Below are positions 7,633-64,000 of a stretch of DNA of 64,000 nucleotides, piece after piece. Each line of letters begins with the position of its first letter. Position 1 is the first letter of the stretch. Below the pieces are notes generated by a model. It had not been told where the DNA came from. It was given only the letters and a program-made list of their open reading frames with translations, and made no database searches. The stretch comes from Bolinopsis microptera (taxonomy: Eukaryota > Ctenophora > Tentaculata > Lobata > Bolinopsidae), in assembly GCF_026151205.1 (NCBI RefSeq), contig NC_087078.1:17563118-17627117 (forward strand). Reading direction: 5' to 3'. A program made the translations under genes and the position numbers.

Positions 7633-8804
7633 TGGTGGTTATCTTCAAGTTATCATATGGAGTGGCTATAACGGATAGTTTTTATACTTCTCCTTGAAAA
7701 AAGTGTCAGGATCATTATTATTGGGGATCCGAACAGGAGTCAAGTTTATAAAATATGGTACATGATAATTACGTTAACTCAGTGGGAGGAATTTCTTCGG
7801 CACAGGATCAAATGCTATAGTGTAAATACTTTGAATAAAATTTAGTTTCAATTTTGGTGCAAACGAAGTTAAGGAGTTCTATTCAATGATTCAACCATGA
7901 GGAAATAAAATGCGGCTTTTTTTAAATCGACAATCTCATTAATAACGACTAATCTCATTGATAAATTTATCATGTATCTTACGAGATAAACAATTTTAGT
8001 CAAAATATAGTCACCTATATTTGTATTTTTTGAAGAATGCACTGATCTATACTCTTTCTATATTCTAAAGGGGTGATTTCAAAAATAAATACTCAATTTC
8101 TAATCTGAAAAAATTTCTTATCTAAAAAACTGTAAACGGTAAACTGTATTTCTGATTTTACTGTACTTGTAAACTTTTAAAAAGTTACGATTATATCTTT
8201 GATACCAAAAAGCCAACATCGTTTGTAATTTATAAAGAAATGACTACGTTTTATATAATATCTACCTGCTATTTACATACTGTAAAAAGATAACACGAAA
8301 ACTTAAACGAAAACACATAAGATGGTAAACAGTCTAATGTATCTAATTAGAACTAAATGGTGCAAAAACTTGAGCAAATTGCACAGCAAGATAAACAACG
8401 CTTCGTGGAAAAGATGATACCGATGTCGTTAATTATAAAATACTGCGGGCTGCCATGCTCAAAATAAAAATCAGATTTATCAATGACAGCTCATTTGGGC
8501 CTAGCCACACGGGCCTTAAAACTGACAAGCTATCGCATAAACTCAAAACAAAACGAAATCTTTTAGTTAATAAATAATTCCTCGACTTACTGACACGGAA
8601 GTCCTGATAACCCTTTCAGCCCCAATTCTAGTTATTTTGGCAGTCGAGATTTTAAACCTGATCAACAAATACACAAAATATGATCACATGTCAAGACCAG
8701 TGTGCTTATTTCAGCAAAATTTTACAGTGGCATACTAGAATAAGTGGACGACGAAGAAGAACGAATCAGAGCTGACAGGGGTATCTACTTTCAGGAAATC
8801 AAAC
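7633..8804. other. Intergenic spacer between ankyrin gene and NEK gene
   Basis: AT-rich DNA between the kinase stop codon (8805-8807) and the first ankyrin ATG (7630-7632), both genes on the minus strand. It must hold the kinase 3' UTR and the ankyrin promoter and 5' UTR, but no TATA box, poly(A) signal or other site stands out enough to call. Confidence 0.5.
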
Positions 8805-11800
8805 TCAGTGGAGGGAAGCAGCGTGCATCTTTTTAGCCACCTCGTGAACATACTGAATATCTGGTCGTTTTTCCGGGTCAGGGTTTATGCAAATGTCCAC
8901 CAAGTCACGAAGCTGAAATGTCGTATATTTTATAAACAGCCAACAGGATATTGTAGCTTTTCATCTAGAATGAAAACAAATTCTTTTCATTATGGAGCCG
9001 GGGACTGGCTACACCTGGTTACAACGCTTCCATTCCATCTTCTCGTAGTTCTAGAATGTTGTAGAAATTAAAACGATATTGTCATTCAGGCGAGATGTGT
9101 GACCCGTGCCTACGGCCGGGACTTCAGTATCTCAGTTGAAACCCACCTATTATATTCGAAAACACGCATTACATTTTCGTAGGTAAAACGGGGTGAAAGT
9201 ACGAAGTCGCTCAGTCCAAACGGACCGTAATTTAATTCTGAGTGCCCATCATGTATCTAATAGTAATACTTGAGAGGAAATCTTGAGTATAATTACCTAA
9301 TTATATAGTAATTCTGTTATGGGGGAGAGAGAGCGAGAGTGAGAGAGAGGGAGAGTACATGAGACACTTTAGTATCACATTTGGGTCAAGACCATCAATT
9401 TAAACCGTTATCACCGGCCGAATTAAAAAACCTTAATTATTTAGCTTCTTCCGAGTTTTATCGAAATTATACCGAAAAAACTAGTCCCATAACTCTTACC
9501 GTTTTCTTGATTTAGAAATTCGGAAATTTCCCATACACAAACGAACGCACTTTTTGGGATTATTGATATAGATAAGTGATTTACTTAATTAAATAAGTAA
9601 CAACCTCTTTGGAGTAGTGTTCGGAGGGCAGGGGAGGGTAGTCACACTTTTCAATCTTTTGGCACAAGGAGTAAAGGTTCATCTTGTCACCGTAAAAAGG
9701 TGATTGCAGGGCAGCCATTTCGTAGAGCAGGCACCCAAGGGACCAGGTGTCAGATTTGAAGTTGTACCCGTTTTCGTGGATTCTTTCTGGTGACATGTAG
9801 TACGGTGTTCCGACTGAAAAGTATTCATCAGGGTTTCAATGCTTTTAGGAACTCTCACGATGAACTTGAAATGGTGTGAATGTCCGTAAGAACTTAAGTT
9901 TGTATTAATACTAATAGTATTCATTTTATTTTATTTATTTATTTTTCATAAGGATGTTGCCATCCTCTGCCTGAAATGACTTCAGAATTCTGTATGTCTC
10001 GGATGTAACTTCTCATCGCCTTAAAGTGACGGTGATTTTATCTAAAACTGATGATCGAACTAAGTAATAAGTAATAACCCCTAATTACGGCATGTTTACT
10101 GTTTAGAAACATTTCGAGAATATAAGTTATAAATTAATCTAGCTAGCTAGCGCGCAGCTCGATTCTTGTTGCACTAACTGCGAACAACTTTATATTGCAA
10201 AATAAATATTACATCGCGCGCTACGTAAAGTTACATTTTTTTGCCACTGTGACAGAGTCAGAAATATGCTTGCGAACTGCTATACAGAGAAACGATCTTC
10301 CGACTTCCTTAGAAAAGAAAAACTTTATTAATTGTCACGTACCAAGGGAGTGGGCAGCTTGAGTTTTTGAACTGAAATATCGGCCCAATCCCAAATCTCC
10401 GAGCTTAACCACGCCCGCAGCTGTTATGAACACATTGGATGGTTTTATATCTGAAATAATGAGATTGGATGACCATTAACCTTGATAACCTGCTATAGAG
10501 AATTAGTCTGGCTCAGTGCCTAAAAATAACATTTCAAGAACACTTTATTGTTATATTAAAAGCTACGATCGTCACACGATTGATCCCTATTTAAAATCAA
10601 CTATTATTACCTCTGTGCATGATACGTCTTGAATGCATGTGCTCCACAGCACTGGTCAACTGTACAAAATATTTCCAGATTGTTCGTTCAGGAATCAACT
10701 TTCCCCCTTTCTTAAAGTGCTGGAAATTGAAATGTCTAGAATAACATTTTGAAATTCTTTTATTACAACAAAGAAAAACAAATAACTGAAAGAAAAACTT
10801 TTATTATAACAAGTTTTGACGTTCATAATTCATGTGTTGGGCTATGTCATACTGGAACGCAAACTTGAGAGGTTAAGGGTCGTGTTGTCATACAATTTGT
10901 ATTTTGTTTGGTTGGGCAAAACTTTACAACACGAAAAAAAACTGGCTATTCTAATTATTCAAATTCTACACAAGGTTTTCAGTTTTCTACGAAAAAGACA
11001 CCGCACAACAGAATTTAAAATGTAGATACTTACACGAATCATTCGAGATAGATCACCAGCATCTGCTAACTCCAACACTATGTTTAGCTGAAAGAGAGCA
11101 AAATATTATGATAAATACATTGTTATCATTATTAGGTAGGTTTCAAAATGTTATTGAAACAACTGAGTGGAGTTCTTATTTGTTGCTCCTTAGGTTCAAT
11201 AACCACCAAAAAAATTCAATTTCCAACTCGACCATCTTACCCTGCTCCGACCACACACAAATGCGTATGTGCATATATAGGTAGTTATAAATGACCGAGA
11301 TCCATCTATGCCTTCAGCATATCGTCATGACGTGTGCAGTGCCTCTAAATATGCATTTATGCTCGAATGGCTCAGACCATAATACATTTTATAGCCTTCA
11401 AAAAAACTGTACAAACGTGCAGTATAAAAACTAGCATGATGATGAAATGCCCTGTAATGTCACACACTTATGCCCTTGTAAAAAATGTATGCATATTCAT
11501 ATTGCATATTATTAAAAAGTTAAGAATTTAATGACGTCACATGACGTGGTAATGACGTAGTAACTAGTAATGACGTCACGTGACGTCATACGACAAAAAC
11601 TCACCTCGTTATCCTCAATGAAGGAAGCCAGGTACTTGATAACGTTAGGATGATTCAATTGCTGAAAATTGCAAACTTTTTAATTCGTTTGTTTTGTCCT
11701 GTTATAACCACCCTATTATATAACCAACTATAGAACGTACGTATTGGGAGCTTATAATTTCATTATGAAACCGATTAATTGACATGCCATATCGAATGGC

Positions 11801-13514
11801 TGAAACATTCTTAGTACACTATTGATATGCAATTATGATTTTATGATGTTCAAATGGCAACCTTTAGAAGATCGATCTCTTTGATACAATCGTTCCTAGC
11901 TTTAGCATCCATCATTTCGTATATCTGAAATTGGGGAGTGGTATAGTATATAGTAGTGGTATAAACAATACACATAATGAGCTGTCACGTGTCAAGACAA
12001 GTGTGTTTAGACAGCTTCCAAATTGGCAAATTGAATACCCGGTTGTTTAATATATTGTTATATATTACAAGCACTAATATATAACAATGAACATACTATT
12101 ATGTTATATTTTCTCATTAAAAACGTTATAATAGTACCCAGCTTATAAGCTTAACGGATGCTTATAGCATTATAGACTGGTAATTTGACTACTAAACTAC
12201 AAACAAGCGTATAAGACACATAAACGTTCTTTAACATATAAAACGATTCTATTGTAATATGTTAACTGTAGAATATATACGTCTTATATATATATTGGTC
12301 ACGTGACTAAGTTTGAAGAGTGTACTTTAATATGCATTCTCTATGCGGCAAGGTGTTCGATATATTCAGTAACTGTATATATTTACACACACATCACACA
12401 TGTACACACATCGTCTAAAATATTGCTTACAAAACGATTCATAGAGCGGGTATTTGAGCACTACAGCAATACTCTCAGTTTCCTAATCTTAGAAGACTCT
12501 ACATCAGCTGCCTCAGCACTAAGCATTATATTATGACCATAGCTTAGAGCAATACATAAGGTTATTTTAAGAGGCAGTTTATTACTGAATTGAATAGAAT
12601 AAACTTATTTACATGAGATTTTTACTTCACCTGGTCAAAATTGGTTCAGTTAACGATTTATTCCAGGCTAAAATTCTTCTAAGAATCATTAACATTGATT
12701 AAAACCTGTTTGATACCGGGAAATTTTATTCCTCTTCATTTTAAAATGAGTCCTTAGTGTTTTGGTTGTGTTGAGTGGTAAGATTGAGCCAATAGTAAAG
12801 ATTGGCATTTAAATATAGAGTTTGGGATAGATTAAAATTTAATTCTAGGCTCGAAATGGAGATCAAAATTCGCAACTTTTATATAGAACTTTTAAAATAA
12901 CGTAACAAGCTGATTTGCTCATAGTTTGTAAACATTTTACTGAGTGATTACAATAAGCATTATATTGAAGTTTATATTAGGAATTATTTTTATTTCATAT
13001 TCCCTAATTGTGCTCAAAACATTTAAGAAATTCGATAAAAATGCGAACCCAAATGAAAACTACTTACCTGCACTTTCTTGAGAGCAACGATGGACATATC
13101 AATGTGAAGTCTGGCTTTATAGACCTCACTAAACTGCCCTTTACCAACCTGTAATTTTATGATTATACTGTCGTAGAGTGTAGAGTGTAGATCTTACCAA
13201 GGTTGATAAGCCAATGGAATTTAGGTATAGCTCACATCTCCCAACATCAACATTAGCGTAGTAACCGTCATTGTAATAAGAATATTGAATAATCGATGAT
13301 AGAAAAGAATTCTCAAAAGTGGCCTTAATTCTTTATACTTGGATGATCATCTTCTGTGGATAATGGAAATGATGGACATGGTAATGCAATTATAACAAAC
13401 CTTTTTGTCTACAATGAAGTTGGAGAGTTTCCCATACAAAATTTGTGGGGGCTCTTTCTTTAGAGAAGCTGCTGGGGGAGGCATTGCACGCTGCTGTTGA
13501 ACTCTTGTGTCCAT
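8805..13514 (-). CDS. NEK6/7: NIMA-related serine/threonine kinase, NEK6/NEK7 type, complete
   Basis: Nine exons, all in phase: 13401-13514 (ATG 13512-13514), 13070-13148 extended to 13068, 11862-11924, 11605-11661, 11034-11087, 10611-10719, 10343-10450, 9605-9813 and 8805-8912. They give 300 residues, the usual NEK6/7 length: a ~30-residue tail, then one kinase domain. Visible motifs are the glycine loop [19 protein letters not shown] (catalytic lysine), the alphaC glutamate in [10 protein letters not shown], the catalytic loop MHRDIKPSNV (split between exons), GDLGLGR (the DLG form typical of NEK6/7 rather than DFG), activation segment [20 protein letters not shown] and [15 protein letters not shown]. 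In the family this kinase acts downstream of NEK9 in spindle assembly, and NEK7 also licenses NLRP3 in vertebrates. The donor after exon 8 (GTTGTT) is weak but keeps phase. Confidence 0.95.
9331..9358. repeat. GA-rich microsatellite in NEK intron
   Basis: GAGA-type simple repeat in the intron between the last two kinase exons. The rest of that intron (8913-9604) shows no other feature. Confidence 0.7.
11532..11588. promoter_or_regulatory. Cluster of CRE-like TGACGT(CA) motifs in NEK intron
   Basis: Perfect palindromic TGACGTCA occurs at 11532-11539, 11571-11578 and 11581-11588, with two more TGACGT half-type sites (TGACGTGG, TGACGTAG) between them, all within about 57 bases. TGACGTCA is the classic CREB/ATF site. 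The cluster lies immediately upstream (in minus-strand terms downstream) of exon 11605-11661. It could be an intronic enhancer or simply part of a decayed repeat; binding is inferred only from the motif. Confidence 0.4.
11925..13067. other. NEK intron, nothing recognised
   Basis: AT-rich intron of about 1.1 kb between kinase exons two and three. No repeats, ORFs or RNA genes are convincing. Confidence 0.5.
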
Positions 13515-13867
13515 GCTCTTAAAAAAGTTTGATTTTATTCAAAATTAGTTATACTCAATTCAACATGATGCAACTAACAGGGCCATAATTCCCGGGGGAA
13601 TTGGGGGAAGATCCCCCCAAGATTTTTGGCCAAAAATTTGAATTTTCTCTGTAGTTTACTACAAATAATAACTTATATCTATAATTAAGATCATTGCATT
13701 GAGAAAAACTGCTTACTGCACAGATCTCTGATCTGGAAGGTGCTGCCAAGACTGATCATGGGGCCTAACTGATCTACCAAATTGCACGGCTGTAGCATCT
13801 AGCGGCCCGTGTAGTATTATAACAGTTTACACTCATTGTATAAATTCTCGTTTTTAGGTTGCTACAG

Positions 13868-15560
13868 CCTGGATACAAGGATACAAGGATACAAGGATAC
13901 AAGGATACAAAAGTGATAATTATTTTATTGAATTCACAATAGTTATAATTCTGAAATAATTTAAGGTTACACAATTCTAGTTATTTACAAATGTGTAGGG
14001 ATAAAATAGAAATGTTTTATAATACTATTTTTGAGGTCCTATAGCATTATGCATTGGCCAGTATTTGAGTGGAAATCTGGGCTCTTATAGTAGGCTGTAA
14101 AATGTTCGTTCACAGAGAGAATTGAATGGATTGCTCTTGCTGTGGCAGTAAATTTTGTAGGGTCTAGTGTTTTATCGGATAGCAAACCGGCTAGGTCAGT
14201 AATATTTTTGGGATGGAAGTTAAATTTTTCTCTAACTGAGGAGTAGAGTAAACAGTCAGTTAGAACATGAATTTCGTCCTCAATAGGCTTAAGCCCCTTG
14301 CTGAGAAAGCAAAAAGTGCACCATCGATGTTCTCTTGGTACTAGGGGGGTTTCGTAACGGCCCCTCTCAATGTAAAGATTGTGGCAGCTAATACGAAACC
14401 TTGTTAAGCTTTTCCGAGCATCGGGGATCTTAACCACTCCTAAGTATGTTTCTGGTTCAAAATCATGTTTAATTTGATTGTAGAATTCTAATTTAGGTGA
14501 GGATGCCTTGGCAGATTTCCAGGTATCCACAAATTCTTCCCTCATGTTGTGACTGATTTGGGTAGAGAGCTTGGATTTTGAAGAGGATGAGTGGGGGAAG
14601 TTATATTTGGTGAGAAGATTAGAGATGTTGGTGTACCAAGGAAGGCCCAGCATAATCTGCTCGTGAAATGCAGCGGAGAGAAGTTCATTTTCAGTGCTTT
14701 CAAGACGACTATAGAAATCTATTGCAAGTTTGCAGGCTTCAAAGAAGAGGGGGTGGCGCCCACTTTCGCCCCAGCAGCCTATATTTGATGCTTTTGAATG
14801 GACAGACAAGGACCACTTGATAAACTTAAGGTGGAATCTTTCATAGTGGTCTTGTGAGATGTACCTGAGAGTATGCTGGGGGTTGGCTTTGCTATCTGTT
14901 TTGGAGAGCTGCTTTCTAGGGGATCTCATACCAAAGGCACGGTATAGGCCAAGTTTAATATTCAAACAAAGTTTTTTCAAACCATACTCTGAGACATGGA
15001 GTTGGTCCTCCTTCAACGGGTTAGGAGAGTCTTGGGATGACTCAGCAGCAGAGATGGCACGGGAAAAGTTTCCAGTATTGTTTACAGTATATAGGCGGCG
15101 GTAAAAGTCACTTAACCCTCTTTTAGCTGAGACAAATTGTGTTATTTCTGAGACAAATTGGTTGGTAAGTTCACTGATTAATCCAGGGGTTGGGGTGGGT
15201 AGGGAGATGACAACCTTTGCGCTGGAGCTCGAGAGGAGTTTATCGATGACTGATTTTGCATCCTCAATCGCTTTATTAACAGAGCAGGTTCTGTATCTGT
15301 AGTCGTTGACTCCAAGCTGGAGAATGTAACAGTCGACCTCTGGCTGTTTAATGACATCTCTCATACAGTGGTCTTTTATCATGTCAGTATAAGAGCCTAC
15401 TTTCATTTTTTCCACCTTGAACCCAGAGGAAAATGACTCAGGTAGAAAGTTGTTCATCTGGGAGTCATGTAGGAGTAGAACCTTTTTCGGTTTTCGCGTT
15501 TGTCTACTAGGCCTGTGTGTAAAGTGTAAGGTGTAGAAAATGTGGGTGTGTGCGTGTGCT
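13868..15560 (-). mobile_element. CR1-like LINE remnant with octamer 3' tail
   Basis: A minus-strand non-LTR retrotransposon copy whose coding part is the ORF at 14039-15457 (extending in frame to about 15540). Downstream of the stop lies a 3' UTR of ~170 bp ending in five copies of an octamer (GGATACAA on the plus strand, i.e. TTGTATCC in element orientation) at 13868-13908. Short octamer tails are characteristic of CR1-group LINEs. The element ends only ~350 bp upstream of the NEK start codon. Confidence 0.8.
14039..15457 (-). CDS. LINE protein: SGNH esterase joined to post-RT tail, no RT
   Basis: 472 codons from the first ATG; the frame stays open upstream to about 15540. The N-terminal ~180 residues are an SGNH/GDSL-type esterase: block I is KVLLLHDSQ, whose nucleophile serine lies just before the first ATG, so that ATG is not the true start; block III is LQLGVNDYR; block V is EDQLHVSEYG with the Asp/His pair. 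From about residue 195 the sequence resembles the tail that follows the reverse transcriptase in many LINEs (SNIGCWGESGRHPLF) and ends with a zinc-knuckle-like CTFC...EDEIHVLTDC. The whole reverse transcriptase that should lie between is absent, yet the frame is unbroken. It may be an internal deletion that kept frame or a domesticated fusion. Confidence 0.75.
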   Translation of the reverse strand: MNNFLPESFSSGFKVEKMKVGSYTDMIKDHCMRDVIKQPEVDCYILQLGVNDYRYRTCSVNKAIEDAKSVIDKLLSSSSAKVVISLPTPTPGLISELTNQFVSEITQFVSAKRGLSDFYRRLYTVNNTGNFSRAISAAESSQDSPNPLKEDQLHVSEYGLKKLCLNIKLGLYRAFGMRSPRKQLSKTDSKANPQHTLRYISQDHYERFHLKFIKWSLSVHSKASNIGCWGESGRHPLFFEACKLAIDFYSRLESTENELLSAAFHEQIMLGLPWYTNISNLLTKYNFPHSSSSKSKLSTQISHNMREEFVDTWKSAKASSPKLEFYNQIKHDFEPETYLGVVKIPDARKSLTRFRISCHNLYIERGRYETPLVPREHRWCTFCFLSKGLKPIEDEIHVLTDCLLYSSVREKFNFHPKNITDLAGLLSDKTLDPTKFTATARAIHSILSVNEHFTAYYKSPDFHSNTGQCIML

Positions 15561-15903
15561 ACTTGCTAGTTGCTAGTAAGTAAGTTTGAACTTCAAAGCT
15601 TCGGCAGTACCCAGATAGCCCGACCCCTGTACGCAAACAACTTTTTTGTGAACAGTTGTACACTATATGCAATATGACCACTTCAATCTATTGATTGGTT
15701 ACCAGATCATATATGACCGCATATAATCAATCATGAAATGTTATGAAATTGAATGGTATGTATGGTATCTTGGATGCAATTAGTTACAACTAGCATAATT
15801 TGCCATTAATTGTAGTAAATTGCTGGATCAAACTATTGATTACAATTCAAATTTGGTCTCTCAGATATAATTAGTTATGAATAGCATTGATTGTAGCGTA
15901 GTA

Positions 15904-21240: not shown

Positions 21241-22616
21241 TAATAATAATAATAATAAGTAGGAATTTATACATCGCTTTATAGCCATAAAGAACTCAAA
21301 ACCCAAAGATTCAGTTCAAACCATCTAAAGCGACTCATGAGTAACATGTACACAAGAACTTATTTTTATGAAGTATGGATTTTATGAGAGAGGTAATACA
21401 TGATACTTATACAAATACGTTTTCAAAGAGATGAGTTTTTAGTTTCTTTTTAAATAAGACGATATCAGTTAGTGTTCTCAATTGATAAGGAAGCTGATTC
21501 CAAACAGAGGGTCCGCAGTAGCTGAAACTTCTCTCGGTTTTACTATAGTTTGAAATAGGAGAAACATTTAGGAGGAAATAGTCTTCTTCAGTTCTTAGTA
21601 CACGTACAGGTTGACTCTTGATGTCAATACATTTGGTGATATACTCCGGCGCTATGTTGTTGACGCATTTGAACACGGTTAGAGCAATCTTATACTCTAT
21701 TCGTTGTCGTATTGGAAGAAAATGGGCTTTTTTCAGGAATGGAGTGACACTGTCCCATTTTTTGATAGCTTTCCAACCAAACAAGAATCGAACACAGGAA
21801 TTTTGTACCTTCTGGAGTTTCTTTATGAGAAGATCGGGTAAACCGTATAAGAGTCCATTGCAGTAGTCTAGTTTTGAAAAGATCAAGCAGTGAATGAGCT
21901 GTCTTTTTAGATCATAGTTAAGCTTTGAGCCTATAACTCGAAGGTTCCTCAGATGGATGTTGCAGCAACTGATAATTGAATTTATTTGATCTTCAAATGT
22001 TAGGAATTGATCAAATAGGACACCTAAACTTTTCACTGTGCGGGATGCCTCCACAGGGTCAGCTGCATTGTCAAGTTGTATTGAATCGACTGGACATGAA
22101 GAGTAACTGTTCTTGGTCTGTACTACAAGAGCTTCTGTTTTGTTTTGGTTCAGTTTGAGTTTATTTTGGGTCATCCAGGTTTTAATATCTTCAAAACAAT
22201 TTGTTATTCTCTCTTCGATTGTTGACAGATCTCGAAATAGTGGGTTAAACTCAATGTACAGTTGAGTGTCATCTGCGTACATATGGATGTTAAATCCATG
22301 TCTCTTTGCGATCTGATTGAGCTCCTTTGTGTAAAGTATAAACAGAATTGGACCTAGAATTGAACCTTGCGGGACTCCAATTCTAAGGAAGCATCTCTTT
22401 GATCTTGATTTATCAATAGTTACTGCGAAGGATCTGTTATTAAGGTATGATGTAAACCATTCGAGAACAGTACCTTCAAAACCAAAGTCCTTTTTTAGTT
22501 TTTTTAGGAGCAAGTGATGATTTACAGTATCAAAAGCAGCACTGAGGTCCAAAAGGAGGAGGATAACCTTGCTTTTCATGTCACTGATACAAAGAAGATC
22601 ATTGTGTTCTAGGGAT
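21241..22616 (-). mobile_element. 5'-truncated CR1/L2-type LINE with RT domain
   Basis: Minus-strand LINE copy. It is bounded at the 3' side by an (AAT)n tail at 21241-21260 and at the 5' side by loss of frame at about 22616. Between the tail and the ORF stop lies a ~150 bp 3' UTR. The coding portion holds the RT palm and thumb (see ORF entry). The tail and UTR layout resembles the fragment at 17424-17580. Confidence 0.85.
21407..22579 (-). CDS. LINE reverse transcriptase, palm to C-terminus
   Basis: 390 codons, intact. RT motifs in order: LLDLSAAFDTVNH (motif A, first catalytic Asp), GVPQGSILGPILFILY (motif B), HMYADDTQLYIEF (motif C, catalytic DD), TEALVV, VKSLGVLFD, then thumb sequence YCNGLLYGLPDLLIKKLQKVQN and a C-terminal SFSYCGPSVWNQLP motif. 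This signature is CR1/L2-like. The upstream endonuclease and RT finger region are missing (5' truncation), so the copy is dead, although its frame is well preserved and the insertion may be recent. Confidence 0.9.
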   Translation of the reverse strand: MKSKVILLLLDLSAAFDTVNHHLLLKKLKKDFGFEGTVLEWFTSYLNNRSFAVTIDKSRSKRCFLRIGVPQGSILGPILFILYTKELNQIAKRHGFNIHMYADDTQLYIEFNPLFRDLSTIEERITNCFEDIKTWMTQNKLKLNQNKTEALVVQTKNSYSSCPVDSIQLDNAADPVEASRTVKSLGVLFDQFLTFEDQINSIISCCNIHLRNLRVIGSKLNYDLKRQLIHCLIFSKLDYCNGLLYGLPDLLIKKLQKVQNSCVRFLFGWKAIKKWDSVTPFLKKAHFLPIRQRIEYKIALTVFKCVNNIAPEYITKCIDIKSQPVRVLRTEEDYFLLNVSPISNYSKTERSFSYCGPSVWNQLPYQLRTLTDIVLFKKKLKTHLFENVFV

Positions 22617-54517: not shown

Positions 54518-55661
54518 GTATGCTCTACTTTTGACATTCTGATTACTGTGTTGTATTCAATAAAACTATAGTATTTCAACTGAATTTAAACAGAGCAGAA
54601 ATTCAGTTTAGCACAGTGCAGTTCTGTCACACAGTAGTAGATTGTTAAGTTGTTGTCAAATAATATATAACAAGCGAATAATATTAGTCACTTGTTAGTT
54701 ACACCTTTTCTGAGGTGTAGCGAACGCCGAGTTTAAAAATTATGAAGTTTATAATCAAGTCATAATGAGGAATAAATCCTAATTGCCGATCAAATTGAAA
54801 ATTTTAGAAGAGTTATAGGATGGCCTCGAATAAGGTAAAATTCAAAATCGAAGGCCAAGGTTCGACCTTGGACTGTGGCAACGTACTAACGTGGCACAAC
54901 TAATTTTCCATTCTGTGAAGCTAAGTGAAGAGACTCACTGTACATGTAATAACATTCTTTCGTTAACATTACCACCGGCATCAACTAAATAATATACCAG
55001 ATATCTATCTATGTTATATTATAAACTTGGCGAAATCTCCCAAGCAACGGCATAAAAACACTGAAAATTGGTCAAAAACCGACCCTAATTCGATCTGACC
55101 AATGTCAGCTCGCAAATTGAGTTGAAAACTAGCAATTTTTAGCAATACTAAGGCAATGGGACTACTGCGGACCCTCCACCGGCCAAACCTTGTTAACAAA
55201 GCCGTAGTCAAGGTTTGGTGAACGGTACTAGTTAAAAGCGTTTAAGGGACATAAGTCAAAGTGGTAGAGCAACATCATGTAGTGGACATCTTGAGAAATG
55301 AGTAATAGGTAGAATGCAAATGTAAGGTTGCTCCTTCAAAAATCGTCTTCCTACTCCGATAATAAATTACATCAAGTCTTGAAAATTATTCGAGAAGAAT
55401 CTCGAATAATTGATGAATGATGTTGCTCTACGAAAGTCGAAACCTTGTTCAGCTTTTTTCTATAATCCCGATTTAAAGATCCTGATATTAAATCTACCTT
55501 TATCAGGAGTGGTCGACGTTGAGATGCATGTTACCCTCACAAGGGGTCCTCAACCACCAGAAACCACCCAAGTGGGGGACGGGACACGCGCTACCACCAA
55601 TCCGTGGGGACGATAAAACCACTTACACCTTCTACAACAGCCCAATGACAGAGTAAGTTGT
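54518..55661. other. Intergenic or intronic, nothing recognised
   Basis: Contains a short hairpin (CCAAGGTTCGACCTTGG near 54858-54874) and a duplicated inverse phrase TTATTCGAGA/TCTCGAATAA near 55387-55410. An open frame ending at 55614 (TTNPWGR then stop) could be a last exon, but phase and homology do not support it. Confidence 0.35.
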
Positions 55662-55975
<314 letters not shown>

Positions 55976-56650
55976 GAAGCCAGTCTTTCATCTACCGCAC
56001 CAGCCAATCCTTGTTAATTAAGAGGAGAGTAGATCGGTTCATTGAGTGAACGTTCATTTCTGAAAAATTTGGTACCTTTTTTATTTTACACAATACTTAC
56101 CTCGGTCGTGTGGCAGGTTAGTAGGTACATACCTACTTCGCAATTTGATACTTACAATTATTGGGGTTTATAACATCGTTTTGAATGTTTTAGGCTTTAA
56201 TTTCTACGATCACAAAGGCCTCATTAGTTTGGCTTATCGTCCTCCGTAAGAGGTTCTATTGGCTTCACTTTGGATGACTAAATTTCGCTACTAACTACTA
56301 ATACGTTGAAATAGATGAGATATAGTTCACTAACTCCACTTTGGCATCTTTACAGTACAACATGCAACAATAATCATCGTACACTGTACACTGTACAGTG
56401 TCTATGACTATATTATATAATAAGAAATGTACAAATTTTCTCCGTTGAGCGGATAATGTAGCGGAGAAAGAAATCATCGTATTTTTAAAATGACAAATAT
56501 TTCCCTCTCCGTCTTGCGTAATGAGTACTCTCTAATTCTCTGGAACATGGTCACAGGCCAAACGAGAATATGATCGATCGTCTATTGGTTGCCAGGGAAA
56601 CAGCATCAATATATTTGTTTTATACAGCAGTTTAATAACGTGATTGCATA
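55976..56650. other. Left flank of the inverted-repeat element
   Basis: No recognised gene. A short palindromic run TGTACACTGTACACTGTACA lies near 56378-56400. Confidence 0.5.
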
Positions 56651-57518
56651 TAGATGTGGATACTGGCGGGGAGGTGATCATTGTTTGTTTACATTAATAG
56701 GGAACACATGTTCAGGAGGCTGAGGAGGTGATCATTGTTTGTTTACATTTTAGGTGGAACACATGTTCAGGAGGCTGAGGAGGTGTTACATATTTTGTAT
56801 TATAGAAGGCTTGTAACACATGTAACGCCTTCTTGTTACCCCCCTTTGAGGACCCCGAATTATTTTCTGAACGAAAGCTCAAAAATAACCGAGAAATCGA
56901 CCTTCTTATTAACTCATTTTGATGACCGTTTCTAACCTAAAATTGCACGAAAAATCGATTTAGCTAGGTTTCAGAACCTATAAACACTTCCTTATCCCTC
57001 AAAATCGATGTTTTATAGGTTAGAATGCAAGCAACAAGCAACATATATTTTGATCCTTCGGTTCTACAGCTCTTGACCTAGGGCTGAAACCGAAAGATCG
57101 AGGCAATCCTAACCTTAACTGATCGAACTTGAGCGAAGAGCAGAGTACGACAAAACACAGCAGGTAAGCATCTCATTTTTGTGACTGTTCCTCACCTGTA
57201 CAACGTTGCACGAGAAATCGATTAAAGTTGGTTTTACAGCCCAATAACGCTTCCTTTTTCCTCAAAATTGTTGTGTTACTCAAACAAAGAACATGTTGAT
57301 TCTGCAACGAAAGAACAAGGAGATCGTCTCATTAACAACTCAAACAGGTTCAACAGGAAGAGTGAGCACTGAGCAGAGGGACATTATATCGTATGTTTAC
57401 ATTTCTTATCTGTATTTGACCCTTTGTTCACATTGTTATCTCTGCCACAGGTTGGCAATTTCAAGGTGCTCTTATCTGCAGACTGCACCTCGGTACACAC
57501 GCCATGATTACGTCATAC
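56651..57518 (+). repeat. Left 868-bp inverted arm
   Basis: Outer end carries a ~54-bp tandem duplication (GAGGTGATCATTGTTTG to AGGAGGCTGAGG, at 56671 and 56725). Inside are the phrases ...ACAAAACACAGCAG|GTAAGC (a strong splice-donor context at about 57160) and CGAGAAATCGATT twice. The short frames at 56735-56935 and 57293-57526 are mirrored exactly in the right arm. Whether the arm holds real exons or promoter sequence is unknown. Confidence 0.9.
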
Positions 57519-58101
57519 AGAACTAGAAATTGTGTGAACCGTGACCATTACAACCGTGCCCAGTGCCCATGTACAATGCTAACTGTTGGGGGGGGGGGGG
57601 GGGGGGTGGGTTGGGGGTTGTTTACGATAGTCAAACAATCTTGATAGTGTATCAAGGTCTCTCCTCCAACTGACTGCTGTGCTTATCGTCCAGTCAGGAA
57701 CAGAATAATAACATGATTTTTTAGTTATAGTATGTCTCGGCTGAACTGCGGAGATAAGTACAGTTTGCTGTAATATGTACAGTTTGCTGTAATATGTGGT
57801 CGCGATTATCAACTCAGTGGAATTTCAAATGATGAACTGTGCTTTAAGTTTACACCAACTGGAACCAAAGGAATATACCCATGAGTGCTCCCTAACTTAA
57901 CTTGGACGGTAAGTGTTTGACAATAAAAACTAGGACACGAATTCTCTGACAAGAAATGTTAGCAGGTTTAAATAAAATATACCTGCAGTTAGCAGGTTTA
58001 AATAAATATACCTGCAGTTAGTTTAAATAAATATACCTCCAACTGACTGTGGTGCTTATCGTCCAGTCAGGAACAGAATAATAACATAATTTTTTATTTA
58101 T
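57519..58101. repeat. Poly-G run and short direct repeats inside the element
   Basis: A run of 19 G at 57588-57606 is followed by GGGTTGGGGG. GTGCTTATCGTCCAGTCAGG with ...ATAATAACAT occurs at about 57678 and 58050. TACAGTTTGCTGTAATATG is repeated at 57760 and 57779. AGCAGGTTTAAATAAA(A)TATACCTGCAGTT appears about three times at 57961-58035. AATAAATAAAAAATTATG just after the transposase stop gives its poly(A) signal (minus strand, near 58085-58101). Confidence 0.8.
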
Positions 58102-60424
58102 TCAAGTAGCCCTGGTCATTTTAAAAAAATCGTTGTCCACCTCCCTTAAAAAAACAGGGTTCAAATTGACCAGTTGGGCACACACGAATGCGATGTCGCT
58201 CAGATAAGGCAACATCTTCGCCACAACTTTGTTTCCCAAAATCTTGTACCGCTTCAGATAGCCAATAGAGCGTTCCACGTGGATGCGGGCGATGCTGACT
58301 TTCCTGCTGGCTGCTACTTCTTCCGGCGTGAACTGAGTCTTGCCCCACATCCCCGCTGGGATGTTTAGTGTAACTCCTGAAATTTAATTCGCTTTTTATT
58401 CCGCTTATTCTTAACTAACCGGACGATGATTAATCACTCTACACTCAACTACTCAACTAGACTGTTACGTGACGTTTCAACACGTTTTCTAGCTGGCTCT
58501 GAAACCTTAACCACCCAGAATGACCCTAACCCTAACACAAACCCGATTTCTAACTTAAGCGTATGCTGAAACCTTAACGAGAAATTAGAAACCATAAGTC
58601 ATAGCACGTTATCTCGCGAGAGGAGCATCATTTGGGTGATTCGCAATCAGCATACAAAATATAAATACTACGATTTAAGTTGGTTTTAACTGTTAGTGTT
58701 ATAGGGGCCCGTTCAGAAAAATCTCATATTTCGAGTGTAGCACGGTTGGAACTAACCTTCGGGCAAAATGTCGTGAATGAGGAACCCCTTGTCAGCCATC
58801 ACGTTGTCACCAACAGTCACCTTCTGCAGTATGGCACTATCCACTACAATTTCCTTATCGGTTGTGCCACCAGGGTAACAGCGGCTGACATACGTGATTA
58901 CCCCACTGGGCGCAATTCCGATTAGTAACTTGGCTGTGTGCGTAGCTGGAGATGGAACAGAATGATTATGCAGGGGAAATTGTATGAGGTACGAAAGCAG
59001 AAGATCTGTAATTTACGTTGCAAGTTCAGCATTACTGAAAGGTATGATCTTCTGAACTTACACTTATAATGGCTGTAACATTTGGCGCTCGACTCAATGT
59101 TGGACGGAGCTTCAATTGGGACCTGTGGATTGTAGGAACTTTCAATTGCTACAACTGCAATAACAAAATGAAATTTTGAACATCACAATTCGCACCCCGC
59201 CGTAATTGTACTGCTGTAGAGAACACCAATTCACTGGTCACGTTTAAAGTGAAATGTTGTGTCAATTTATCTATTGTGACTGTTATAATTCTGTCTGAGC
59301 TCTAAAGTTATAGCCGCTCATTCGATTCTGGTAATGGACTCAAATCATACCTCGGTACAGTCAATCACGATCCTAGTGTTGGGATGGGAAGCGAAGCATG
59401 CAGGCATGGCTTTCTGGCACTTCGCTAGTGACGGTAGTTCGTCGCCAACCAGGGTCTTGAATTTGTTGACCATGATATCCAGCCAGGACCTCCATATCGA
59501 TGTTATCTGTGATCTCGATACCTGAATTTACCTGAACTTAGTTCCGTTGCAATATAATAGGAAAAAAGTTTTGAAGCAGTCCCTAGAACAGCTGCATCTA
59601 TTTTTAAATCTCTTTTGAAATGTAAGAAGTCGAAAATCAACATTTGAAAGGTCAACTGCTGTTACCCAAACTACCGCTGTTGCTACTAAAAAGCTTACCT
59701 GAAAATCGACAGCTAAAATATCATCAGGAAGATTAACTCGCAGTTTCTTCAACGTGATGAGCAGTTGGTCCTCGTACAGGAGGGTCGAATGATGGTTGCC
59801 AGTAACAGCGTAGGTGAGGGAGGTTTGGGTGCGATAAGACCGGAGGAACTTCAGCAAGGCAAGAAATACCTCTCCATTAGGTAATCCAGTGTATTGGTGA
59901 ACCTGTGTAAATATTTCATATGCGGTTACGGTTGGGGCAACGTTACCTAAGATGGCGTGACGTGAGAAGTAATAATTATGGACCGGTTAAGTTGAAAACT
60001 TAGTGATTTGTTTAAGTAATGACATTGATTATAGAATAATAATGAAATGTAGGAGTCTGGGATAGTTCTAAAATTGGATACAACAGTTTGACACAATTAC
60101 GATGACAAAGAGCACAAACCATTCGCGCAGAATTCTTTATGGTGGCGAATCTGATTCCCTCCAAAAGAGAGTTCTTGTACCGCTGTTGGTGGGTGTCGCA
60201 TACTCTCGAGTCATTGGTAATCCAAGCCCTGAAAGAGGTTACAGTTTGAGTGGTGTTCTATATAATGGTATTTATGATGATTGCAGGTGTCCAAGGATGT
60301 ACGAATATGAAAGCTGTTAGGATCAATCAACTAACGTGGGGTACGTGAGCTTCACTGATTCAAGGGCTCTTTTTGGTATACGCCGTCTTCCAAACGTACC
60401 ACATCCAGGAATTGAACATTTCAT
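58102..60424 (-). CDS. PIF/Harbinger-type DDE transposase, multi-exon
   Basis: Exons on the minus strand: an N-terminal exon starting at ATG 60422-60424 (MKCSIPGC...DTCNHH, a C-x4-C...C-x2-H zinc motif loosely like THAP; its 3' end is unclear), 59699-59902 (YTGLPNGEVFLALLKFL and LKKLRVNLPDDILAVDF, the HTH part), 59351-59521 (VSRSQITSIWRSWLDIM to RIVIDCTE, first catalytic Asp), 59062-59152 (IEAPSNIESSAKCYSHYK), 58757-58945 (HTAKLLIGIAPSG, VMADKGFLIHD, second Asp) and 58102-58376 (ARIHVERSIGYLKRYKIL, catalytic Glu; VCAQLVNLNP). All DDE residues are present. Phases agree except at the join of 59351 and 59062, where the visible AG leaves two extra bases before the expected Val codon: a small disabling indel, an assembly error, or another splice choice. 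It would act in the nucleus on the element ends. Confidence 0.88.
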
Positions 60425-60667
60425 GTTAATCTTGTTAATGTAAAAGTTAGTATATAAAACTTGTAACAAGTTGACATAGAAGTGCTGCACGTGCATACAA
60501 TTAGATTGAGGAGCAGCGGTTCTGTATCAAAGCTGTTACAATTGATAAAACTGGGCAGTTCGGAAAATTTAAAAATGAGTCGGCAATCGGCATCTACACT
60601 TTCTTTATTCAGCAAATGTTATTTTCAAACAAATAAAGTTTGAGACAAACAATATTATATTATAATG

Positions 60668-61318
60668 TTATTTATATTTACAGCTACTTTCATGTCTGTT
60701 TTTTGCACTACTTACATTAAATTCCATACCACAGTAAGTGCAGGAGTAGGGTTTTGCTCCTGTGTGAACTCTTATATGCACTGTGAGATTACTGTTTCTA
60801 GTAAACCGCTTACCACACACATCACACTCGTGTGATCTCTTACCGGTGTGTATCACAGTATGTCTTTTTAGGTTGTCTGCTCGCAGAAACCGTCTCCCAC
60901 AATACCTACACTTGAACTCATCATCGTCGTGTGTCAGCTTGTGTTTCTTAAGGCCATCAAGTTTTTTGAAAGACATAGGACACACATCACATCTGTATTG
61001 TTGTAGTGCATGCTCTGAACTGATATGATCATACAGTTCCTGTTCAGAGGATTTCTTAACACCACACTCATGATACTGACAATTGTGTGTCTTGTTTGTG
61101 TGGTTACGGTAGATGTGAGTAGTGAGGGTATTTTTCTGAACAGTGGTATAGTCACAATGTGTACACCTGTACTGCTTATCCCCCGTGTGTGTTAAAATAT
61201 GCTGGGTGAGGTGGTGCTGATGATCAGTCCTATATTGACAGTAAGGACAGGTAAGTCTCGCTACTTCATCGTGTACTGTTCTAATGTGTCTTGTTAGACT
61301 CTTTCTCCAACCAAACAT
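60668..61318 (-). CDS. C2H2 zinc-finger protein, eight fingers
   Basis: 216 residues from the first ATG, but the frame stays open upstream to the arm boundary near 61440 and that extra part contains CETCG, the first half of finger one, so the ATG at 61318 is not the true start. Fingers begin at CETC, CPYC, CTHC, CQYHEC, CDVC, CRYC, CDVCGKRF and CTYC. Linkers of TGEKP type are partly kept (THTGDKQY, HTGKRSHEC, HTGAKPYSC). The last finger is C2HC (RHESSC). Upstream, GCLKLF...LELETHKC looks like the remnant of a ninth finger cut at the arm junction. Probably a nuclear DNA-binding protein. It sits next to the transposase on the same strand inside the inverted arms, so it may be a partner protein or captured host gene. 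Confidence 0.85.
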   Translation of the reverse strand: MFGWRKSLTRHIRTVHDEVARLTCPYCQYRTDHQHHLTQHILTHTGDKQYRCTHCDYTTVQKNTLTTHIYRNHTNKTHNCQYHECGVKKSSEQELYDHISSEHALQQYRCDVCPMSFKKLDGLKKHKLTHDDDEFKCRYCGRRFLRADNLKRHTVIHTGKRSHECDVCGKRFTRNSNLTVHIRVHTGAKPYSCTYCGMEFNVSSAKNRHESSCKYK

Positions 61319-61442
61319 GTTCCCGCACGTCTCACACTTGTGTAGTTTCTCTTTCCCCTTCCTTGATACTTCTCGAGTCGTCCCACATTTGTGTGTCTCC
61401 AGCTCTAGCTGCGTCTTGAACAGCTTCAGACAACCGGTTGCA

Positions 61443-62310
61443 GTATGACGTAATCATGGCGTGTGTACCGAGGTGCAGTCTGCAGATAAGAGCACCTTGA
61501 AATTGCCAACCTGTGGCAGAGATAACAATGTGAACAAAGGGTCAAATACAGATAAGAAATGTAAACATACGATATAATGTCCCTCTGCTCAGTGCTCACT
61601 CTTCCTGTTGAACCTGTTTGAGTTGTTAATGAGACGATCTCCTTGTTCTTTCGTTGCAGAATCAACATGTTCTTTGTTTGAGTAACACAACAATTTTGAG
61701 GAAAAAGGAAGCGTTATTGGGCTGTAAAACCAACTTTAATCGATTTCTCGTGCAACGTTGTACAGGTGAGGAACAGTCACAAAAATGAGATGCTTACCTG
61801 CTGTGTTTTGTCGTACTCTGCTCTTCGCTCAAGTTCGATCAGTTAAGGTTAGGATTGCCTCGATCTTTCGGTTTCAGCCCTAGGTCAAGAGCTGTAGAAC
61901 CGAAGGATCAAAATATATGTTGCTTGTTGCTTGCATTCTAACCTATAAAACATCGATTTTGAGGGATAAGGAAGTGTTTATAGGTTCTGAAACCTAGCTA
62001 AATCGATTTTTCGTGCAATTTTAGGTTAGAAACGGTCATCAAAATGAGTTAATAAGAAGGTCGATTTCTCGGTTATTTTTGAGCTTTCGTTCAGAAAATA
62101 ATTCGGGGTCCTCAAAGGGGGGTAACAAGAAGGCGTTACATGTGTTACAAGCCTTCTATAATACAAAATATGTAACACCTCCTCAGCCTCCTGAACATGT
62201 GTTCCACCTAAAATGTAAACAAACAATGATCACCTCCTCAGCCTCCTGAACATGTGTTCCCTATTAATGTAAACAAACAATGATCACCTCCCCGCCAGTA
62301 TCCACATCTA
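61443..62310 (-). repeat. Right 868-bp inverted arm
   Basis: Reverse complement of 56651-57518, from GTATGACGTAATCATGGC at the inner edge to CCAGTATCCACATCTA at the outer edge. Being 5' of the zinc-finger ORF, it could carry that gene's promoter and first exon; a GTAAGC donor read on the minus strand lies near 61795. The outer edge abuts ATAGATGTGGAT, forming a palindrome (CCACATCTA-ATAGATGTGG) at 62302-62320. Confidence 0.9.
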
Positions 62311-64000
62311 ATAGATGTGGATCTTTATATCATTGACGGTAGGAGTTGAGTTTTGTTGGACTGATCAGCTCATGGACTGAAATAAAGTCAGAAATGTTGC
62401 GATAAATTCAATCTGTCTGAAATATTATTTGCTAAATTCTTTTAAAAAAAATATTTTGTTCGAGTGTTATTGGAATGAGGTTGTGATATGTGGTAAGTCC
62501 TGTTCAACACACCAATTTTGTTTTCAGTTATGTGGATGATATGCACGCAAGCAACAAGCTATTTAAACTCTTCTAGAATTGCAATGATACTTGGATCTCC
62601 TCGGCTGCTATTCAGTGATGTGCTGCAAAACTTTAAAAATCTCCTGAGACGATTTTAATAGTTCTTTAAGCAAAAAAGGCGGCTACAAAATCAGGACTGA
62701 CAAATATTTTTCGTGATGAAAGCGATTACTGATGTTTTTCAACAATAATCAGTCGAGAGACTATATTCAAGGAATATAAGAATGAATGAAATTTTTGTCA
62801 CTCAACGTCAATGTAATTAATATGGCATTGTGCCAAGGATTTTAGATTTTAGATACAGATTTATTTGCTAAGAAAAGATTTAATTTACACATCATTATGA
62901 TTGTCGAAAGATTTACATTTTATTTTTAAATCGAATTGATGAGATATGTAAATTTACTTTGTTCTAAGTAAGGAAAAACTTGGACTAATGCTGGACGTGA
63001 TACATTGTCATAAATCATAATAATGATTTCATGTGCTATAAAATGCGACAAATTTCTGGACCAGGGGTATACTTTAATTGTTATCAACGTACTACATTTG
63101 TCATTTGTTGACTCGACAACAAGCCTATTCGAAATATAATTTGTCATAACCTTCAAATGACATGGCTGCAGCCTAAATAAAAGTGTAGAGCGGCAATCCT
63201 CCTTATTTATCATAACAAGCTTGAAATATTACAATTTAATAATTTGATCATGCATTGCATGATATGAATAATTTTTATTAAAATCAAAAATATCCTGAAT
63301 AATAAATGTTAAATAAATATTCCTTTTAAAATGTTCCTATAACTATTCCCAGAATAAGGGTAGTTACAAGTGAAACATATTCGACAGTACAAATTATATC
63401 CTGACGATTTTTCTTCTCGAGAAAACGTTTCCATGGAGTCTTATGATGAAATTTTATGTGATGTGTGAAATTAAACGAATGATGATTTTATGCATACTTA
63501 TCTTCATAGAAGCTAGAATACAAACTCAACAGTGAGTACTTATTATTATTATTTTGATTATTTGAGCTGTTGCATAAGTGCACGGAATTTTCTGCTCGAA
63601 TTACCAATCTTGATCTGAATCACTTCAGTACTCTCTCCAAACTTGCTGTTGTGTGACGCGCGTGTGTCCCGACCAATTTTCATTTTAAATACTGAAACTT
63701 AGCGCAGCGCGCGAAATTAGATTTAAATGGTAGTAAACAAAAAAGATCATCGACTGTGACAGAAATTCGGTAATTTAACACCATATTCATAACGCGCACC
63801 AATTCAACCTTACAGGCTTACCGGTATAATCTGCACAAACCGATGGTTAATTCCCAGCAACCGTTCTACAGGTTGGCCGATGTGGCTTGGGTCGAGGTTT
63901 ATTTAGTCGATCGGGAATCCAAAATCCCGGGTTTCCTGAATATCAGTAATCAACCACCAATTCAGAAATTTTAGATTCCAATATTTTGTCCCGATTTTCA
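62311..64000. other. Right flank, nothing recognised
   Basis: AT-rich, without convincing ORFs, repeats or RNA genes. The frame at 62926-63213 (minus) has no recognisable domain and AT-biased composition, so it is not called. Confidence 0.5.

Follow-up and report, generated by a model that had tools for sequence, protein, structure and literature searches.

A ctenophore transposon unit with long inverted arms is very probably an internally deleted copy of a four-gene ISL2EU-type element carrying a gene akin to a PRDM9-like host family

We analysed a 64,000-nucleotide stretch of the genome of the ctenophore Bolinopsis microptera (RefSeq assembly GCF_026151205.1, contig NC_087078.1, positions 17,563,118 to 17,627,117 of the forward strand; hereafter the window), which contains a 5.66-kb transposon-like unit between positions 56,651 and 62,310. 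In the original prediction, made from the letters of the window, this unit was described as a Harbinger-like element in which identical inverted arms of equal length enclose a transposase gene and an eight-finger C2H2 open reading frame (ORF) on one strand. The two arms are indeed 868 bp each and 100% complementary. Similarly, the transposase, which contains the Pfam domains DDE_Tnp_4 and HTH_Tnp_4, and the C2H2 ORF (60668-61453) were both found on the minus strand between the arms. Eight C2H2 fingers were counted in the array of the nearest relative of the unit, and the window array agrees with that array from its third residue onward.

This nearest relative is a 15.29-kb element with the same arms at C1:8303705-8318994 (hereafter the C1 element), and the core of the window unit is 99% identical to the corresponding part of it. 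Aligned to the C1 element, the window unit is 99.2% identical across 4794 bp; the alignment then resumes in the far arm, the two segments overlap by 2 bp, and the 9.66 kb between them is absent. Further full-length copies were found on C4 (14.7 kb), C5 (16.8 kb) and C12 (15.5 kb). In the C1 parent the inverted repeat measures 1309 bp, and one side of it has been cut to 868 bp by the deletion in the window copy. Thus, the window copy retains the complete transposase gene (g4) and the 3' exon of the C2H2 gene (g3) and lacks a gene for a Ulp1-like protease (g1), a gene for a YqaJ nuclease (g2), the 5' exons of g3 and 441 bp of one inverted repeat. We conclude that the window unit is very probably an internally deleted copy of a ~15-kb four-gene ISL2EU-type (PHIS superfamily) element with kilobase terminal inverted repeats (TIRs).

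It is very improbable that the 5.66-kb unit is instead a complete autonomous Harbinger-like form in which a C2H2 protein replaces the Myb/SANT partner. Both the transposase and the C2H2 array have open frames between family ends, and the C2H2 gene is present and under constraint in all four full-length copies; however, the C2H2 frame starts in the right arm and is without the upstream exons that are present in four of four full-length copies. Because the 5'-most 11 bases of the open frame fall inside the right arm, the ORF is a truncated exon, and we rejected it as a complete gene; the window unit is accordingly a derivative that has been shortened, not a system of two genes, and the proposal that the ORF is the partner gene of the unit is not supported, since it is a 5'-truncated fragment in the window copy. 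Moreover, the deletion junction sequence occurs only once in the genome (≤2 mismatches), the target duplication of the family is 2 bp and not the 3-bp TWA given for PIF/Harbinger in the excerpts of PMC4482050, and the parent encodes YqaJ.

Gene models, in which exon limits were set from splice signals and conservation, place all four parental genes on one strand (Table 1). The transposase matched DDE_Tnp_4 (4.6e-40) and HTH_Tnp_4 (5.4e-12) in Pfam, its D, D and E motifs were read from the sequence, and its model is open and gap-free in five of five copies, including the window copy. When the C1 element was compared with the copies on C4, C5 and C12, no stop codons were detected in the exon cores of the four genes, indels affected one g1 codon and one codon of the array, and 109 g2 codons were absent from C4. 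In the same comparisons, the ratio of non-synonymous to synonymous differences (pN/pS) was 0.28-0.30 for g1, 0.19-0.20 for g2, 0.39-0.54 for the two parts of g3 and 0.17-0.20 for g4; for the whole of g3, compared between C1 and C12, it was 0.46 (p = 1.8e-4 against 1). We conclude that all four parental genes are under purifying selection.

To the eye, exons ahead of the Ulp1-like part of g1 resemble zinc fingers (best zf-C2H2 E 0.38), and a CxC..CxH motif ahead of YqaJ in g2 looks SWIM-like by eye, with no SWIM match in Pfam. Exons 1 and 2 of the transposase contain, by eye, a C-x4-C-x31-C-x2-H pattern, which we take to be shorter than the THAP consensus. The transposase had no match among solved structures, and a search of NCBIfam gave only a sub-threshold IS5 match. 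YqaJ exons at least 87% identical over long stretches are confined to the copies on C1, C4, C5 and C12; distant YqaJ-like ORFs at C3:4458082-4458633 (34% identity) and C2:14997078-14997647 (28%) possibly come from other elements.

Table 1. Features of the window unit (window positions) and predicted genes of the full-length parent (C1-element positions). For the transposase exons, window position = 71975 minus C1-element position.
Feature	Position	Strand	Basis
Left AT, expected 2-bp target duplication	56650..56651	.	Flank comparison
Element proper, first base, begins AGATGTGG...	56652	.	Flank comparison
Left arm, portion exactly common to right arm, 868 bp	56651..57518	+	Arm comparison
Direct repeats at arm tip, 54-55 bp spacing, mirrored at 62176-62291	56670..56785	+	Arm self-comparison
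Inner 441 bp of parental inverted repeat, here on left side only	57519..57959	+	Alignment with C1 parent
Transposase exon 7, HVERSIG with catalytic E; stop codon	58102..58376	-	Gene model, Pfam
Transposase exon 6, MADKGF with second catalytic D	58757..58945	-	Gene model, Pfam
Transposase exon 5	59062..59122	-	Gene model
Transposase exon 4, end of HTH_Tnp_4; VIDCTE with first catalytic D	59351..59521	-	Gene model, Pfam
Transposase exon 3, first part of HTH_Tnp_4	59699..59902	-	Gene model, Pfam
Transposase exon 2, C-x2-H by eye	60120..60228	-	Gene model
Transposase exon 1, start codon 60424-60422, C-x4-C motif by eye	60336..60424	-	Gene model
3' exon of putatively captured PRDM9-like gene, eight-finger C2H2 array, 5' exons deleted	60668..61442	-	C1 alignment, host homology
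Deletion junction, 2-bp overlap, 9.66 kb of parental element gone	61443..61444	.	C1 alignment
Right arm, 868 bp	61443..62310	-	Arm comparison
Abnormal right flank: ...CATCT, then AAT, then AGATGTGGAT	62311..62322	+	Flank comparison
g1, Ulp1-like protease	C1 element 2518-4708		Peptidase_C48 1.4e-9 (joined exon cores), 0.0067 (single ORF)
g2, YqaJ nuclease	C1 element 5725-8181		YqaJ 2.9e-16 (joined exon cores), 2e-7 (single ORF)
g3, C2H2 protein: N-terminal exon, acidic region, C2H2 array	C1 element 8806-11304		One open frame, five exons
g4, transposase	C1 element 11551-13873		Seven exons, 365 residues, HTH_Tnp_4 and DDE_Tnp_4

A genome-wide search with the 25-bp arm tip (≤1 mismatch) gave 190 forward and 181 reverse matches (371), while the reversed control gave 0 and 0; similarly, the whole arm had at least 70 matching stretches in the genome (40 of 823 candidates scored). 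The search thus returned many further copies, and the window unit is not the sole copy. Inverted arms of 0.64-1.26 kb were present at 12 of 20 fetched loci, and the other eight had one end, none, or short inverted matches only. Among 100 listed tips without mismatch, 66 formed 33 inverted pairs within 20 kb by hand count. Many short family copies are without the C2H2 gene, and tip pairs ~170-200 bp apart at C2:119854-120025 and C3:4548343-4548543 are miniature derivatives. In total, the copies argue that the family is real and mobile and includes many broken copies.

The element ends read AGATGTGGATACTGG. Identical 2-bp flanks were found in 16 of the 17 complete copies for which both flanks were in hand, AT in 15 and AG in one; the AG/AG copy is informative because it shows that these two flanking bases come from the duplicated target and do not belong to the element. 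The next outer base at 65 distinct ends was T in 33, A in 29 and C in 3. Several copies with the same ends and differing 3-bp flanks had been named in the original prediction as the sign of a mobile family, and ATA had been noted on both outer sides of the window unit. The shared ends and the letters ATA are there; however, the family duplicates 2 bp, and a 3-bp ATA duplication is ruled out by the 2-bp flanks of the 16 other complete copies. The ATA on both sides is part of the anomaly at the right flank of the window copy, where AGATGTGGAT outside the right end is a 10-bp remnant of another family end. At this right end (62311-62322), two family ends abut with the 3-bp spacer AAT between them. 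The abutted ends could stem from a lost neighbouring copy, imprecise excision or a circle or dimer junction.

These flanks also bear on a further reading, in which the palindrome is an artefact of the assembly or arose by local inverted duplication around an element, the latter being an alternative offered in the original prediction. We consider this almost certainly wrong. Although the window arms agree at 100% of their positions and, of the 17 copies, only this one has non-matching flanks, the same ends occur, inverted, in the 16 other complete copies with matching 2-bp flanks, and the arms are for this reason not the product of an inverted duplication. Moreover, the window arms differ from both arms of the nearest relative at position 501, and a simple deletion from the parent accounts for the junction.

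For known elements, we refer to excerpts of the cited papers. In a survey of 25 ISL2EU families, the elements average ~4.8 kb, have TIRs of 6-259 bp usually starting with GG, and insert at A|AT|T (Han et al. 2015, PMC4482050); the transposase contains an HTH or a THAP domain (PMC9179366). PIF/Harbinger elements duplicate a 3-bp TWA target (PMC4482050). The element described here shares with ISL2EU a DDE_Tnp_4 transposase with an HTH, a parental gene for a YqaJ nuclease, an AT duplication at an AT-rich site and an animal host. It differs from the described ISL2EU elements in that full-length copies are 14.7-16.8 kb, the target is mostly W|AT|W rather than strictly A|AT|T, and two extra genes are present, for the Ulp1-like protease and the PRDM9-like C2H2 protein. 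With PIF/Harbinger it shares a related DDE transposase and an accessory DNA-binding protein, and it differs in its 2-bp rather than 3-bp duplication and in the presence of YqaJ; moreover, no match to the Myb/SANT second protein was found among the 24 ORFs and joined-exon strings scanned (8 + 10 + 6). In Galileo, the 1.2-kb arms carry tandem repeats with several binding sites for the transposase (Marzo et al. 2013, PMC3688188), and the inverted repeats of more than 1 kb with internal repeats are a likeness to Galileo/Foldback; the Galileo transposase is, however, of the P superfamily (THAP and P-type), whereas the one here is of PHIS type.

On the basis of the transposase with HTH_Tnp_4 and DDE_Tnp_4, the AT duplication and YqaJ in the parent, we assign the element to the ISL2EU type (PHIS) and not to canonical Harbinger. 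Since the described TIR ranges are taken as description and not as definition, the element is still classed as ISL2EU; it departs from described members in arm length, end sequence, size and gene content and is a new variant. Accordingly, the predicted subfamily with a C2H2 partner survives in part, as a mobile Harbinger relative in the PHIS-wide sense with long arms and a C2H2 gene in four of four full-length copies, but not as canonical Harbinger; ISL2EU relatives with YqaJ, which had been set apart as an alternative, turn out to include it, as the full-length parent does carry YqaJ. In the ISL2EU passages of PMC4482050, PMC9179366, PMC12730594 and PMC9587614, a scope outside which the subscription literature and Repbase lie, there was no mention of a gene set with Ulp1-like and PRDM9-like C2H2 genes. 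Similarly, among the matches listed for literature joining YqaJ, Ulp1, transposon and transposase, with Repbase and preprint servers outside the scope, none was found.

Several observations weigh against the reading of the unit as a deleted copy of a mobile ISL2EU-type parent. The window copy is the sole flank mismatch among the 17 complete copies (left AT, right AA), without a matching target duplication. At most 34 of the 100 listed tips have no listed partner, an upper figure because only mismatch-free tips were considered in this hand count; arms alone in unrelated contexts, which the original prediction regarded as adverse to a mobile family, are thus represented by unpaired tips, alongside the 33 inverted pairs. 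The TIRs are 0.6-1.3 kb long and start with AGATG, as opposed to 6-259 bp and usually GG in the ISL2EU excerpts, and Pfam recognised no THAP domain in the transposase (PF05485, no match at E≤1), a further difference from ISL2EU. The gene models are based on splice signals and sequence conservation rather than on transcripts. For the Ulp1-like and YqaJ strings, exon cores were put together across junctions of which some are uncertain, and the matches of single ORFs are weaker. Finally, the copies on C4, C5 and C12 are closely related, and the three selection comparisons are not independent.

Across 17 elements, arms compared over ~470 bp differed on average by 0.6% within an element and by 5.5% between elements. 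Nevertheless, the arm pair within an element was the closest pair in only four of the 17, was tied in eight and was beaten in five, so that this test is equivocal. We therefore rejected arm identity by itself as proof of recent origin or strong conversion, as had been proposed for the window unit. At arm position 501, both arms of the C1 element have A, while all 21 other arms readable there have C, a comparison made without arms of the C4, C5, C12, C9 and C8 type, which do not align at the site; the window arms carry C and in this differ from both arms of their nearest relative. Arms may be homogenised within elements by arm-to-arm conversion, a case that, the distance test being equivocal, rests mainly on the single base 501. 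The outer flanks of C1:8303705-8318994, CCAATATAA and TTATATTGG, are inverted relative to each other, and the C1 insertion thus sits at the centre of a palindromic target.

In many vertebrates, PRDM9 sets the sites of meiotic recombination, and its zinc fingers change unusually fast. Among the matches listed in a search with the C2H2 array of the element, full-length relatives at 61-69% identity were found in clusters on C10 and C13 and singly on C2, C3 and C129, and partial relatives on C5 and C10; the N-terminal part of g3 finds the same host loci. The host genes lie on C10 (350-387 kb, 857-894 kb, 13.12 Mb and 18.25 Mb), C13 (14.49 Mb), C5 (22.43 Mb), C2 (13.35 Mb), C3 (12.25 Mb) and C129. 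In two host stretches, L066 (C10) and L067 (C3), extra exons lie between the acidic part and the array and match the PR domain (PRDM2_PR, 4e-11 in L066 and 2.2e-12 in L067); a third host exon matched PRDM2_PR below the cut-off (0.0017), and the first PR exon alone gave no match. When the host exons were joined, the best of 14 solved sequences was PRDM9 (5.9e-17), followed by PRDM12 (7.7e-12) and PRDM11 (6.3e-10).

All of the 61 PR matches genome-wide fall within the host loci or, on C8 near 0.95 Mb, within a degraded cluster; none coincides with an element copy. Similarly, a direct test of five units, among them the C1 element and the window unit, and of L028 detected no PR exon; the copies on C4, C5 and C12 gave only weak tblastn PR matches at 34% identity (E 0.08-0.10), situated at about 1.8 kb in the element and not at the C2H2 gene. 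The homology between element and host continues through introns, while positions 931-3071 of L066, which hold the PR exons, are replaced by ~120 bp in the element. The homology across introns and the replaced PR segment argue for capture at the DNA level, with the PR exons lost then or later. In total, the alignments lead us to conclude that g3 was probably captured, with loss of the PR exons, from a host family that lies in tandem arrays and has a PR domain closest to that of PRDM9.

The reverse course, in which the host arrays derived from the transposon by domestication, is highly unlikely. In its favour, host arrays and elements share a genome and are homologous through introns; however, the host genes have PR exons with PRDM9 as their best solved relative, while the elements have none, and an element copy without PR exons cannot be the source of those in the host. 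Moreover, neither L066 nor L067 has a match to the element arm.

In the host arrays, 28 of 32 DNA-contact columns vary as opposed to 60 of 228 others (p = 3.4e-11) in six of the seven fetched arrays, the seventh, from C2, having yielded no array and contributing nothing to the count. The diversity of PRDM9 is concentrated at DNA-binding residues (PMC5519329); in the excerpt of that paper it is measured across the fingers of one array and here between paralogues, and the two measures are related but not identical. In the element copies, the excess at contact residues is small (0.161 as opposed to 0.083), and between C1 and C4 it is not significant (7/32 as opposed to 24/228, p = 0.08). In a tree built on non-contact codons, with the empty C2 row included, the element copies form one group with support of 1.000, while their placement among the host genes is not settled. 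The capture predates the split of the two sublineages of the element.

The likeness to PRDM9 consists in host paralogues with a PR domain and a preceding Cys/His segment that are closest to PRDM9 among solved structures, together with a C2H2 array, hypervariable contact residues and tandem copies. The transposon copy differs from PRDM9 in being without PR exons, and the host paralogues differ in that no KRAB is recognised by Pfam; the likeness rests on sequence matches. By eye, the N-terminal exon of the host genes looks KRAB-like; Pfam did not confirm this, with no KRAB or SSXRD match in the host paralogues, and the exon had no match with E <1 in the PDB. In the excerpts of literature naming both PRDM9 and ctenophores, ctenophore PRDM9 is apparently not treated, and among the literature matches listed there is no report of a transposon-borne PRDM9.

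Elsewhere in the window, a short tandem array with 8- and 12-bp spaced units, open in several frames, lies just left of the element (55619-56004). The minus strand also contains a reverse transcriptase ORF at 21410-22615 (RVT_1, 2.2e-24) and, at 14042-15565, an open frame of 508 residues for which all Pfam matches are below threshold (weak GDSL-lipase similarity, E 0.09).

Altogether, these observations suggest how the element might work. The transposase would be expected to bind the long, internally repetitive arms and excise the element. Insertion would then follow, for the most part at W|AT|W, and, as in ISL2EU (PMC4482050, excerpts), would leave 2 bp of the target duplicated. The repeats in the arms may be transposase-binding sites, by analogy with Galileo (PMC3688188, excerpts), and the direct repeats at the arm tips are candidate protein-binding sites. 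The simplest route to the 9.66-kb loss would be incomplete gap repair or end joining at the 2-bp microhomology. The captured C2H2 protein is most likely an accessory DNA-binding factor that would serve in arm recognition or in germ-line target choice.

Transposons often carry fragments of host genes, and it is possible, if somewhat doubtful, that the parents carry the captured PRDM9-like gene as passive cargo, which contributes neither to transposition nor to any interaction with the host. This general tendency, the pN/pS of g3 (0.39-0.54) above that of the transposase and YqaJ (0.17-0.20) and the many short copies without g3 all fit with cargo; on the other hand, each of the three other full-length copies has no stop in 618 codons, with one codon touched by an indel, the pN/pS of 0.46 differs from 1, and the constraint follows a capture older than the split of the two sublineages. 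We tentatively raise a bolder scenario, itself rather unlikely, in which a ctenophore transposon recruited a PRDM9-like meiotic gene as an accessory factor of its own: it would have dropped the PR/SET part and kept the N-terminal part and the fingers, and the protein would bind the element's own arms or host PRDM9-like sites and would in this way direct insertion or repair to places of germ-line recombination, or else disturb the PRDM9-like arrays of the host.

The element widens the ISL2EU group to ~15-kb, four-gene elements with kilobase inverted repeats, and the window copy illustrates how such elements shrink to transposase-bearing derivatives. Moreover, a PR-containing tandem family with hypervariable contacts, together with a constrained transposon copy without PR exons, would link mobile DNA to a PRDM9-type system near the base of the animal tree, and capture of a PRDM9-like gene would offer a concrete test of whether transposons exploit the recombination system.

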